Source of the DNA: a virus
IMG/VR virus record: IMGVR_UViG_3300007515_000024
Location: 1-33,332 of that record
DNA length: 33,332 nucleotides
Strand: one strand, 5' to 3'
Positions 3,457-22,241 of this stretch are shown one piece after another. The notes beneath the pieces were generated by a model. It did not search any database and was not told the DNA's origin. It saw only the letters and a list, made by a program, of their open reading frames with translations. Numbering within the stretch: the stretch's first letter is position 1; every line of letters begins with the position of its first letter. Made by a program: the position numbers and the translations under genes.

Positions 3457-4571
3457 TTAAGGATTTCTGAACTCGTAAATACGAGCTTCGAAAACTGCGA
3501 CTGCCCCATAGGCCATATCCGAAACGACTTTATTTCCTAAAAAGTCTACCGAGTATTCAGCTTGCACGCGAGGCTCGATCTGACGAGCAGCGCTAACGGC
3601 TGAAGGATGTACTATGTAGCCGACCTCTACTCCCGTAGATCCGGATGTACCCATTACTGTAGAATGGAGAACTGGCATCATTTGTTAAACCAGGCTTTTT
3701 ATCCTGGATCTTGTCATTTCTAACAAGTATCGGCATATCTTTTCAACTTAGTAAGTTGTCGGAGTCTCTTGGCTGAATTATATCTTTTCATCAGCTATGC
3801 TCTGCCCCTGACTATGATTATCATAGCCTTCGGTTCGGATTGCCTTGCCATTTCTGGTTTAGGTTTCCCGCTTAATACTCCAATTTCAAATCGCATAATC
3901 ACTTATGCGCTCGGCATTTCACTACCGTAAAGCATTCCAATTTGACCATTCGCTAACCCACTAGGACCAGAACCCATCTTACTTGCATCGACAAAATCCG
4001 AAATACCTAGCATTGCTGTATACAAAGCTGGAGATACAACTAATTTACATTCTGCTGTATCTACATCGGACTCCATCAAAGTTTTCATCCCTGTTCTTAT
4101 CTCGGCTGCGGTGATAGTGTTATCACCAGCCAAAGCTGCGCCATTTGTACTTGAAGATTCTACAAGACTCTCTATGTAAGCATCGTAAGTTTTTGCAAGT
4201 GCATAAGCGTGTGTAGAGATCTCTTTTTCGAGCAATCCTGGATTTGCCTGGGTTGCTGCTAGATCTTCTACCAAGGACGCGACGTAGCGATGTTGATTGA
4301 TGGTTAATTGAGCGGTACCATGGGTATTCGCTGCGTAAGTTACGATTGTTTCTGCGGCTTTAGCTGCATCACTCGCCTCTGCTAACTTGGGAATATTAAA
4401 ATTATCCCCGCGACCCTTGACTAGACCATTTAATGATGTATCTACGCAAGATTCCCAAACGAGTTTACGTTCGAGATATGCTTTGACTCCATCGGTCCAA
4501 ATCTCTGGTATAAAATTAGCAGCGGTAGTAGTGGTTACACTTGCACCCGCAAAATCACCTGAAAGTGCCAT
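3457..4571 (-). CDS. Major capsid protein, two exons: join(4571..3924, 3678..3457)
   Basis: Exon 1 (4571-3924) gives 216 residues ending GQIGMLYG; exon 2 (3678-3457) gives 73 residues beginning MPVLHSTVMGTSG and ending VFEARIYEFRNP. The sum, 289 aa, is a usual size for small HK97-fold capsid proteins, and the joined text GMLYG-MPVLHSTVM reads like the uninterrupted segment found in marine phage capsid proteins. Read without splicing, exon 1 stops six codons later (SEMPSA) and exon 2 would be an orphan C-terminus. The exon boundary falls exactly between codons at a predicted group I intron. The gene follows the scaffold gene, as expected. AAAGG lies upstream of the ATG. The identity rests on position, size and sequence resemblance; no structure was computed. 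Confidence 0.85.
3679..3923 (-). ncRNA. Self-splicing group I intron (245 nt, no ORF) in the MCP gene
   Basis: All core helices can be paired on the minus strand. P1: exon CGGU (3927-3924) with intron GCCG (3915-3912), giving the U-G pair at the 5' splice site. P2: CGCATAA/TTATGCG (3909-3892). P3: GGAGT (3881-3877) with ACTCC (3765-3761). P4: CGGG (3870-3867) with TCCG (3839-3836). P5: CCT/AGG with inner CCA/TGG. P7: GCATA (3800-3796) with TATGC (3737-3733). A P7.1-type hairpin is GCTGA/TCAGC. P8: CAACTT/AAGTTG (3758-3744). P9: CTTGT/ACAAG. P9.1: CCAGG/CCTGG. The intron ends AACAAATG with terminal G at 3679. The layout closely follows the T4 td intron core, which has the same AAGATAT before the P7 3' strand. 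No homing endonuclease ORF is present. Confidence 0.9.
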
Positions 4572-16815: not shown

Positions 16816-17268
16816 CTAGTTGGCTTTTTTCGCAATTTGAATCCATTTCTTTAAACTTTTTCTTAGCGCATCATTAACTATGCGGCTCACCGGTAGATCT
16901 TTGATCGCAGCTTTAATTTTTAGAGCGTTATAAACATCGAGATCTATCTCGCTATTAAACCTTTTGGTCTTGCCTTCGAATGTTTTGATATATTCTTTGT
17001 TTTGAGCTGGCCTTAACCTTTGGATTAACTTTTTTTCAAGGGCCTGGGCCTCTTCTAAGCTAAATATCACTTTAAATTTTGCGTAGCTATGTTCCTTTTC
17101 ATGGGTCTTGATCCGGTCAAATAGCCTAGTCGAATGGCCAATGTAGATCAGGCCAGTTTCGTCATATAAAGCGTAGACTCCCGTATGCTTTTGATGGCCC
17201 AGGTTCATATCAGTCTCTTTATTGTACCTATACCAAGATCCAGGATATATACCATAAATATCCATCAT
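16816..17268 (-). CDS. GIY-YIG endonuclease fused to a ribbon-helix-helix-like domain
   Basis: The start ATG 17268 gives an ATGA overlap with the preceding gene and is preferred over GTG 17277. The 150-aa protein has GVYALYD (30-36) and IYIGHS (41-46), the GIY and YIG strands, with R52, H56, E78 (EKKLIQR) and N90 (PAQN) in the expected catalytic order. After a linker, residues ~103-140 (RFNSEIDLDVYNALKIKAAI and PVSRIVNDALRKSLKKWI) read as a ribbon-helix-helix DNA-binding domain. GIY-YIG proteins cut DNA as homing or repair nucleases. It is free-standing, not inside an intron; a link to mobility of the MCP intron is speculative. Confidence 0.8.
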   Translation of the reverse strand: MMDIYGIYPGSWYRYNKETDMNLGHQKHTGVYALYDETGLIYIGHSTRLFDRIKTHEKEHSYAKFKVIFSLEEAQALEKKLIQRLRPAQNKEYIKTFEGKTKRFNSEIDLDVYNALKIKAAIKDLPVSRIVNDALRKSLKKWIQIAKKAN

Positions 17269-17612
17269 CGACCCCACTTAGACGTTTTAACTAAAAAGCT
17301 AATGATCGAATAATTAGCCAGATCCATAAACACATCCTCAAGCGGATCGTCTTTTACTGCGACCTCAGTATCGCGTTCAACTAAATTGTAAAACCTTTGA
17401 ATCTTATCGTGCATCCGGAACCATAGGCCTTGTAATGATTTCTTTATATTTTTTGCTTTAGTTAGATCCTGGCCCAAGCTGATATTATTCTCACCGTAAT
17501 CATGTTGCTTTCGACAGAACAAAGTGTATTGCCTCTTTTGAAAATCTTTAAAAAGCTCCATCATCTCTGGATACTCTTTTTCAATGATGTCTATTACTTT
17601 TTTATCTTCCAT
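17265..17612 (-). CDS. DUF1599 / Nmad1-like protein (nucleotide-modification associated)
   Basis: From ATG 17612 the product has 115 aa; in-frame ATGs at 17636 and 17621 are less likely since GGA lies a suitable distance before 17612. The core KQHDYGENNISLGQDLTKAK leads to SLQGLWFRMHDKIQRFYNLV and then DDPLEDVFMDLANYSIISFL. This DYG, WFRM-DKI-R and ED-F-DLANY pattern matches the DUF1599 family, now grouped as nucleotide-modification associated domain 1. It is all-helical and reminiscent of MazG-type NTP pyrophosphatases. It might act on the nucleotide pool or modified bases; the substrate is unknown. It is followed directly by the GIY-YIG gene. Confidence 0.65.
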   Translation of the reverse strand: MEDKKVIDIIEKEYPEMMELFKDFQKRQYTLFCRKQHDYGENNISLGQDLTKAKNIKKSLQGLWFRMHDKIQRFYNLVERDTEVAVKDDPLEDVFMDLANYSIISFLVKTSKWGR

Positions 17613-21134: not shown

Positions 21135-22241
21135 ATGGCAAAAATAGTAAAGAAAAAACCAGGCGATAAATACGTTATAAAACACGTTCCGCAAGGTTAT
21201 AGGGATCTCTATCAAAACCCTTACCGATACATTACTATCGTAGGAAAAGCTGAGGCTGATAGGACCGTAGTTGAATTAACAGCTATAGAGATCATAGATA
21301 AAAACGAAAGAAAACTTGGGAAAACCAATCTTCCCGAAGTTGTGCGCGAAATTAGTATTGGAGAATTATTTGCATTCTTTAAGGATGAAATAATGCCCTG
21401 GTGCGATTACGCGCTTAAAACTGAGCAGCGCTATCATCGTACAATGGAGCAATGGATTAATGATTTTGGCGAAACATTCTTATTTAAGAATATTAGCTAC
21501 AAATTAATCATATCTAATTATGGTACTGGTAAGCGCAATCAATGTATTACTCAGATCAAATGTCTTAATCATATTGGAGCCGTAGGCCGCCAGGCTATAG
21601 CTGGCCAGCTAGATACTCCTTTAAAGGGATTCAAGATCAGTTCGAATCCAATTAAGCATCCCAAGGTCGTCAAGGGTAATAAAAATCCATTAAGCGTAGA
21701 GCAATTAGAAGAAATCTACGCTAATCCAGATATTGATGAAGTAACTAAGGATATGATGAGGCTTTATATAATAACCGGATGCCGCGTATCTGAGCTGACC
21801 CGTCCCTATTTTGAATGGGGTCAAATTGACCAGACAAATGGAGTCGCTTTCATTAGAAATAAGGGTAATAAAAAGGAGCATTCGACTCTATTTGAAATAC
21901 CCTGGCTAAAGCAGCACCAGGAGCTTTTAGAGCGCATAGCAGCGTACTATCAGCCTTGGCATGAATTAGCTGAATACTACCCCATTCCTATTACCAGCCA
22001 AAATGTATACGATCGAATCGTAACCGCCCGCCAAATCAGCGGTATACATTTTACACCTCACGATCTTAGGGATACTGGCGCAACGCTAGTGCTTAGATCT
22101 ACTGGTAATATCTACGCTGCAAAGGAATTTTGTGGCCATAAGAGCGTACGAGATACTGAGGAATCATATGCTGATTACAATATACATGATAAGAAAAACG
22201 CTACCGGTAAGCTCTTAACTCACTTAGGGGCCTTATTATAA
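21135..22241 (+). CDS. int: Tyrosine integrase
   Basis: A 368-aa tyrosine recombinase. Arm-binding and core-binding regions occupy about residues 1-180. The catalytic domain shows R217 (GCRVSEL), HDLR with H309 and R312 (FTPHDLRDTGAT), H335 (CGHKSVRDTE) and the nucleophile Y345 (SYADYN). AGGAGA lies 5 nt before the ATG. It is followed at once by an attP region with a tRNA-Ser 3'-end core and repeated arm-type sites. It would integrate the phage into the host tRNA-Ser gene. Confidence 0.93.
   Translation: MAKIVKKKPGDKYVIKHVPQGYRDLYQNPYRYITIVGKAEADRTVVELTAIEIIDKNERKLGKTNLPEVVREISIGELFAFFKDEIMPWCDYALKTEQRYHRTMEQWINDFGETFLFKNISYKLIISNYGTGKRNQCITQIKCLNHIGAVGRQAIAGQLDTPLKGFKISSNPIKHPKVVKGNKNPLSVEQLEEIYANPDIDEVTKDMMRLYIITGCRVSELTRPYFEWGQIDQTNGVAFIRNKGNKKEHSTLFEIPWLKQHQELLERIAAYYQPWHELAEYYPIPITSQNVYDRIVTARQISGIHFTPHDLRDTGATLVLRSTGNIYAAKEFCGHKSVRDTEESYADYNIHDKKNATGKLLTHLGALL

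Follow-up and report, generated by a model that had tools for sequence, protein, structure and literature searches.

Group I introns are known to interrupt structural genes of phages. Splicing of the intron in the major capsid protein (MCP) gene of mycobacteriophage LittleE has been shown by RT-PCR and protein sequencing (PMC3706429), and the same paper cites a capsid-gene intron in lactococcal phage Tuc2009. PMC6669764 names Lactobacillus phage JCL1032 among phages with proven group I introns, self-splicing of its terminase (terL) intron being reported by Riipinen and Alatossava (2004); it also cites Landthaler and Shub (1999), whose title refers to three introns in one gene of Staphylococcus phage Twort. 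The preliminary description of the locus reported here held that known phage introns favour terminase, polymerase and nucleotide-reductase genes, a view that needs qualifying, as LittleE and Tuc2009 are precedents for capsid genes (PMC3706429). Taken by itself, the intron that we describe is another capsid-gene group I intron of a kind already reported. What goes beyond the preliminary description is that it is one of many same-lineage insertions at different places in one gene.

The window (the whole stretch of 33,332 nucleotides that was analysed, from IMG/VR record IMGVR_UViG_3300007515_000024) contains the two halves of an MCP gene as minus-strand ORFs of 222 aa (4571-3903) and 74 aa (3681-3457). 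The preliminary description placed an intron at 3679-3923 and joined the MCP frames at a codon boundary; these coordinates were exact, and excision of the 245 nt leaves an in-frame MCP of 289 aa without stops. Alignment of this product with homologous MCPs, which had been put forward as a check, gave an end-to-end match: intron-free IMG/VR homologues align in a single tblastn segment over residues 1-289 with 76-84% identity. The spliced MCP matched PHROG family phrog_267 ('major head protein') at 1.2e-37, as compared with 9.4e-25 and 4.2e-6 for the separate halves. An intein reading of the insert was rejected, as there is an in-frame stop 18 nt in and no long ORF. The features of the locus, and the positions of related introns in other MCP genes, are collected in Table 1.

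Table 1. Elements of the MCP locus and other genes in the window, and sites of related introns in MCP genes of other records
Feature	Position	Strand	Details
MCP 5' exon (codons 1-216)	4571..3924	minus	3' end CTTTACGGT
MCP intron, ORF-less group I	3923..3679	minus	245 nt, AGTGAAATGCCG...AACAAATG
MCP 3' exon (codons 217-289 + stop)	3678..3457	minus	5' start ATGCCAGTTC / ATGCCAGTT, end TAA
P1	3912..3927	minus	exon CGGU (3927-3924) with internal guide GCCG (3915-3912); U.G at 5' splice site
In-frame stop TAA	3903..3905	minus	18 nt into intron, ahead of ribozyme core
P2 hairpin	3892..3909	minus	CGCAUAAGUGAUUAUGCG
P3 5' strand UUGGAGU	3877..3883	minus	3' strand ACUCCGA 3765-3759; two-sided changes in 6/7 pairs, 21 introns
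P4 (CGGG/UCCG) and P5 (CCU/AGG) region	3836..3870	minus	sequence and covariation
P7 5' strand G(A)GCAUA, bulged A	3796..3802	minus	3' strand UAUGCC 3737-3732; guanosine-binding site region
P7.1 hairpin GCUGA...UCAGC	3772..3795	minus	subgroup IA-like feature; 100% paired, two-sided changes in 4/5 pairs
P8 hairpin CAACUU...AAGUUG	3744..3758	minus	covariation
P9 hairpin CUUGU...ACAAG	3710..3727	minus	covariation
P9.1 hairpin CCAGG...CCUGG	3690..3707	minus	78% of cells paired; subclass-dependent
Terminal omega-G	3679..3679	minus	sequence; G last in mapped introns, but G required by junction search
GIY-YIG domain protein, free-standing	16816-17277	minus	Arc-like DNA-binding tail
Phage integrase	21135-22241	plus	
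Intron site	after codon 17		L017, L018, L023, L042
Intron site	after codon 18		L024, L029, L049, L207, L225, L240, L241
Intron site	after codon 20		L028, L050, L224
Intron site	within codon 24		L027, L086
Intron site	within codon 58		L044, L224, L240, L241
Intron site	within codon 101		L047, L240
Intron site	after codon 120		L049, L053
Intron site	after codon 131		L050, L224
Intron site	after codon 216		window, L033, L034
Intron site	within codon 235		L241
Intron site	after codon 264		L053, L240, L241
Sites in distant MCPs	near codons 29, 117, 127, 254, 267		29: L104/L143; 117: L148; 127: L125; 254: L096; 267: L103/L128

The Rfam group I model (RF00028, Intron_gpI), a search with which had also been suggested as a check, gave no match to the window intron, even at E<=10 over an 801-base stretch, an outcome that the preliminary description had named as refuting its proposal. 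This miss is a false negative of the Rfam model, and an RF00028 match is in any case an aid to recognition and not a defining feature of group I introns. Rfam cannot be decisive because the JCL1032 terL intron, for which splicing has been reported, is likewise missed and goes unreported even at E<=1. The RT-PCR-proven introns of LittleE and BAKA score 31 and 29 bits, below the cut-off of 50, and several compact introns, including those at site 131 of L050 and site 58 of L224, gave only sub-threshold matches (E 1e-6 to 1e-12); the site-20 MCP intron of related phages is matched at 74 bits. We built a covariance model of the intron core, R1, from 17 related introns including the window copy. Its sole match in the window is the intron described here (182.9 bits, E 5.7e-52, this copy being among the training sequences); R1 also matches the JCL1032 terL intron (72 bits, E 5.7e-20), and it matched neither the LittleE nor the BAKA intron. 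The Rfam model thus overlooks this class of phage intron, and as a result split capsid genes will probably be annotated wrongly, as if truncated or absent.

Since Rfam was silent on the window copy, 21 introns from related MCP genes were aligned and scored against the structure in Table 1. Paired cells amounted to 93.4%, as against 75.1% in shuffled and at most 41% in slid controls, and two-sided changes numbered 190 (57 shuffled, at most 38 slid), with 35 pairs showing such a change. P4, P7 and P7.1 are paired in all 21 introns and P3 in 93% of cases; two pairs of P7 show two-sided changes. The structure was partly derived from the same 21 sequences and for this reason the slid control leans towards it, but the size of the gap makes the resulting bias minor. 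Whole-intron minimum-energy folding was left out because the P3/P7 pseudoknot cannot be represented. The alignment meets the test for a group I core, having the P3-P8 and P4-P6 domains, the P3/P7 pseudoknot, the P7 bulge and the conserved G-C pair. The fold from P1 to P9.1 that had been proposed, with U-G at the 5' splice site and a terminal omega-G, was recovered throughout, with P1-P9, P7.1, P9.1 and omega-G all accounted for. On general knowledge we call the intron subgroup IA-like, since P7.1, one of the extra helices (P7.1 and P7.2) found between P7 and P3 in that subgroup, is present and covaries.

Introns of this type occupy 11 positions in MCP genes that are at least 70% identical, namely site 216 of the window and ten others. 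Junctions were mapped by requiring a T before the intron, a G at its end and an unbroken frame (the L044 intron was assigned to site 58 alongside the other introns of that site). The T and G at the junctions are thus in part imposed by the search, which is not true of the covariation or of the stop codons and presence/absence pairs described below. Four introns each are found in L240 (sites 18, 58, 101 and 264) and L241 (sites 18, 58, 235 and 264), and three in L224. In L240 they total 970 nt against an MCP coding sequence of ~867 nt, and in both L240 and L241 the MCP gene has more intron than coding sequence. Distant MCPs matching the same profile add about five positions, mapped less exactly, and most of the related records are fragments. 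Several individual arrangements were also observed. The intron at 696-924 of L022 is a hybrid, with a site-17-like 5' half and a site-18-like 3' side, and its spliced MCP would be one alanine short. At 1788-2690 of L125, a single MCP gene holds two introns that start with the same bases (ATTAAT..TTGGCGTTTGCRTA) although their cores seem to be of different subclasses, which gives the impression of swapped 5' ends. A second MCP-like frame, 23% identical, lies downstream of an intact MCP gene in L019 (3854-4747).

Comparison of near-identical genomes (~99-99.7%) showed that at each of sites 58, 131 and 17 a single intron is cleanly present in one genome and missing from the other. The 4.7 kb compared between L284 and L265 are 99.6% identical; only one of the two has the site-58 intron, and no other difference occurs in the 1132 nt upstream of this site or the 1544 nt downstream of it. 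L265 and L263 share 99.6% identity across 5.2 kb, and the site-131 intron is present in just one of them; within 1.2 kb their sole further difference, checked in the sequence, is the -1 base (empty GCG, occupied GCT). That the empty alleles might be spliced cDNA was considered and rejected, as L263 has GCG where spliced L265 would read GCT. L017 and L007 (~99%) differ by the site-17 intron, and their other differences cluster beside it in a manner resembling co-conversion. These pairs support the insert boundaries without recourse to any RNA model. No near-identical empty genome was found for site 216, the occupied relatives L033 and L034 being near-identical copies. On the MCP tree, ten changes are needed to account for the site-17/18 intron. 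At site 120, L053 and L049 carry introns that match the window intron at 97.2% and 96.3% identity, respectively, whereas identity of the MCP exon DNA is just 73.5% and 75.1%; the three introns form one group in the intron tree (support 97/95), and sites 216 and 120 have a common core, CGGT^ATG.

Several features of these genes are indicative of constraint by splicing. Guide sequences fit the exon of their own site better than those of other sites (50 pairs, 10 sites), a fit equalled in 35 of 20000 permutations. Occupied alleles have T as the -1 base, but of 154 empty alleles from sites 120, 131, 216 and 264 only 46 do; the codon leaves this base free at these four sites, but there are few occupied alleles, these are related, and the T was required by the search. 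An in-frame stop occurs no more than seven codons into the intron in each of the 20 representatives tested, which include phase-0 and phase-2 insertions, at a mean distance of 4.05 codons against 11.0 in the other frames (Mann-Whitney 1.4e-4, uncorrected for relatedness). In the class bearing P2 the stop is 18 nt in for phase 0 and 19 nt in for phase 2 (sites 101 and 235), an offset by which the same UAA stays in frame. We infer that the early stop holds ribosomes off the ribozyme core. In the proposed mechanism, the CGGU ending the 5' exon of the late mRNA would pair with the guide GCCG as P1, a guanosine bound in P7 would cleave after the U at 3924, and the freed 5' exon would attack after omega-G at 3679 to give the in-frame 289-aa MCP, with the TAA 18 nt into the intron stopping ribosomes before they reach the core. 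As this stop precedes the core, unspliced mRNA should give only a truncated capsid protein, predicted to end in ...LYGSEMPSA.

Splicing of the window intron in vivo is inferred from such sequence evidence, and two other accounts of the 245 nt have to be considered. The MCP could truly be a split protein, its 222-aa and 74-aa ORFs being translated apart around an inert spacer. Both ORFs are open and the second exon starts with ATG, but inspection by eye of the sequence upstream of the ATG at 3678 found no convincing ribosome-binding site, and an inert spacer would not be expected to have group I covariation, to recur as the same type of insert at ten other MCP positions in relatives, in codon phases 0 and 2, or to show clean presence/absence pairs at other MCP sites. 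We regard this account as having next to no chance of being correct. Only marginally better, and still highly improbable, is that the intron is a decayed relic that has lost splicing. The lack of an Rfam match would be consistent with decay, as would the short P1, which at site 216 has only 4 bp and counts against our main explanation. All pairs of P7 and the invariant core bases are nevertheless intact, the intron is also present in two other contigs (L033 and L034), and without splicing an essential protein would not be made. Structure, covariation and continuity of homologues bear out the earlier proposal of a compact ORF-less group I intron in the MCP gene. We are highly confident that 3923..3679 is a complete ORF-less, IA-like group I intron, belonging to a lineage that has repeatedly entered MCP genes, and that it is removed by guanosine-initiated splicing to yield the 289-aa MCP, the splicing itself being inferred.

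When 27 whole related records (481 kb in total, <=36 kb each) were searched with R1, all 25 matches were in the MCP gene. The site-20 type, detected by RF00028 only, is also in the MCP gene, and the sole RF00028 match elsewhere scored 15 bits (G013). A gene-blind scan of IMG/VR with a 16-base core word gave at least 119 introns. Among those listed, at least 46 have MCP exons on their flanks, and these exons fall into three PHROG types (at least 35 phrog_267-like, at least 8 phrog_544-like and at least 3 phrog_1328-like), and other hosts are tape-measure (at least 35), terminase (at least 8), DNA polymerase (at least 2) and unclassified genes (at least 28). Because the core word itself was taken out of MCP introns, and near copies may be included among the records, these figures are shares of a sample. 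Examples within tape-measure genes include L095, L097, L106, L108, L136 and L145. In L160 (1146-2127, minus strand) three introns of the lineage lie close together, at least one adjoining phrog_1328-like capsid exons. An unannotated intron of the lineage separates two RNA polymerase CDS in Aeromonas phage AhC3_1 (L082 3959-4142), and similar unannotated stretches are present in ZPAH34, ACP1, CF8 and PS1. Another lies between CDS annotated as gyrase A subunit in Yersinia phage phiR1-37 (L307 1542-1728), directly following g328, an endonuclease by RefSeq annotation.

A compact ribozyme lineage repeatedly enters the MCP genes of related phages at differing positions, and its introns, which encode no endonuclease, pass from site to site and from one phage lineage to another. 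The presence/absence polymorphism and the change of site are shown by the sequences themselves, as are the intron structure, its boundaries and the continuity of the exons, whereas the way in which it moves is inferred. There is no homing endonuclease ORF within the 245 nt, as had been noted at the outset, and mobility in trans, which the preliminary description inferred from this absence, is plausible; no HNH gene was found in the window, but it does have a free-standing GIY-YIG gene. This gene has an 82% identical homologue in the L049 record, which carries the near-identical site-120 intron, and homologues of ~50% identity in others, some of them phages whose MCP genes are intron-free. It was rejected as the intron's matching endonuclease, as it occurs whether or not a phage has MCP introns.

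Two routes of spread were weighed. Introns may reach new MCP sites at the RNA level: the guide sequence fits every site, the near-same intron at 216 and 120 with a common CGGT^ATG points to guide-directed insertion, and the site-58 genomes show no change over 1.1 kb on the upstream side and 1.5 kb on the downstream side. Such a route would be favoured if, as expected, few late transcripts are more abundant than the MCP mRNA. It does not, however, predict the differing -1 base at site 131, as simple reverse splicing would follow a pre-existing U, the ATG common to the 3' flanks is unnecessary for guide pairing, and the flank differences at site 17 resemble the exon co-conversion that DNA-level homing leaves behind; on balance, we consider the RNA-level route unlikely but not negligible. 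Alternatively, in collaborative homing, free-standing endonucleases from the same or a co-infecting phage would cut intronless MCP genes, and repair would copy in the ORF-less intron. The differences clustered at site 17 between L017 and L007 suggest DNA recombination, probably begun by an endonuclease in trans, and collaborative homing has been described in phages (PMC3984707); the GIY-YIG gene of the window and the HNH gene adjoining the intron-bearing terL of JCL1032 are also in keeping with this. Against it, no HNH gene was found with PF01844 in 20 records, nor with HNH_3 above the cut-off in 20, the GIY-YIG gene does not correlate with introns, and homing into sites already in use would not alone give rise to new ones. 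We judge this explanation about equally likely to be right or wrong. The site-131 pair is a simple fit neither to trans homing nor to guide-directed insertion. Overall, trans homing is somewhat more likely than RNA-level spread, and the origin of new sites is left open. Only as a tentative and rather doubtful proposal can the MCP gene be portrayed as a live hot spot into which endonuclease-free introns insert through guides of 4-7 nt by an RNA-level, reverse-splicing-like process that targets an abundant late mRNA, up to four per gene, with gain and loss in present-day populations.

The window encodes an integrase, which makes a temperate lifestyle probable. A search of bacterial genome contigs revealed no close prophage, MCP relatives there being 24-27% identical at best. 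Phages are under pressure to keep their genomes compact and each particle takes hundreds of copies of the capsid protein, yet up to four ribozymes must all splice correctly to produce it. Genomes that differ by one intron are natural plus/minus pairs, which makes the cost of an intron, the spread of ORF-less introns and a capsid supply tuned by splicing open to testing, and the MCP gene is a natural setting in which to watch introns being gained and lost.

In the literature searched, which excluded most subscription journals, we found no report of serial colonization of an MCP gene, of a phage gene with four introns or of such plus/minus pairs. A close parallel is the terL intron of JCL1032, which belongs to the same compact lineage according to R1, has a similar start (P1 AACGGT^AGAGTTTTGCCGTT) and is likewise invisible to Rfam; it differs in lying in terL with an adjoining HNH gene, whereas the introns described here are in the MCP gene, at many sites across relatives, with no adjacent endonuclease found. 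Twort also has multiple group I introns within a single phage gene, but the window lineage reaches four in one 0.87-kb gene, with 11 positions across close relatives and near-identical genomes with and without an intron. To our knowledge, the intron-bearing gene of Twort is not the MCP gene. The LittleE MCP and BAKA minor-tail introns are likewise RT-PCR-spliced group I introns of virion structural genes, that of BAKA being ORF-less, but they occupy one site each and that of LittleE is ~0.8 kb with an endonuclease ORF (PMC3706429). Jug phages share the abundance of compact group I introns (mean ~206 nt), but theirs are spread across many genes of 360-402-kb genomes at 18.5 per genome (PMC12363816), unlike the window lineage, which is confined to the MCP gene within the whole records searched. 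Finally, the group I introns of fungal rDNA also colonized one gene serially at many sites, and reverse splicing has been proposed there (PMC1299323); those introns reside in nuclear rRNA genes, whereas the lineage described here has done so in a protein gene of phages.
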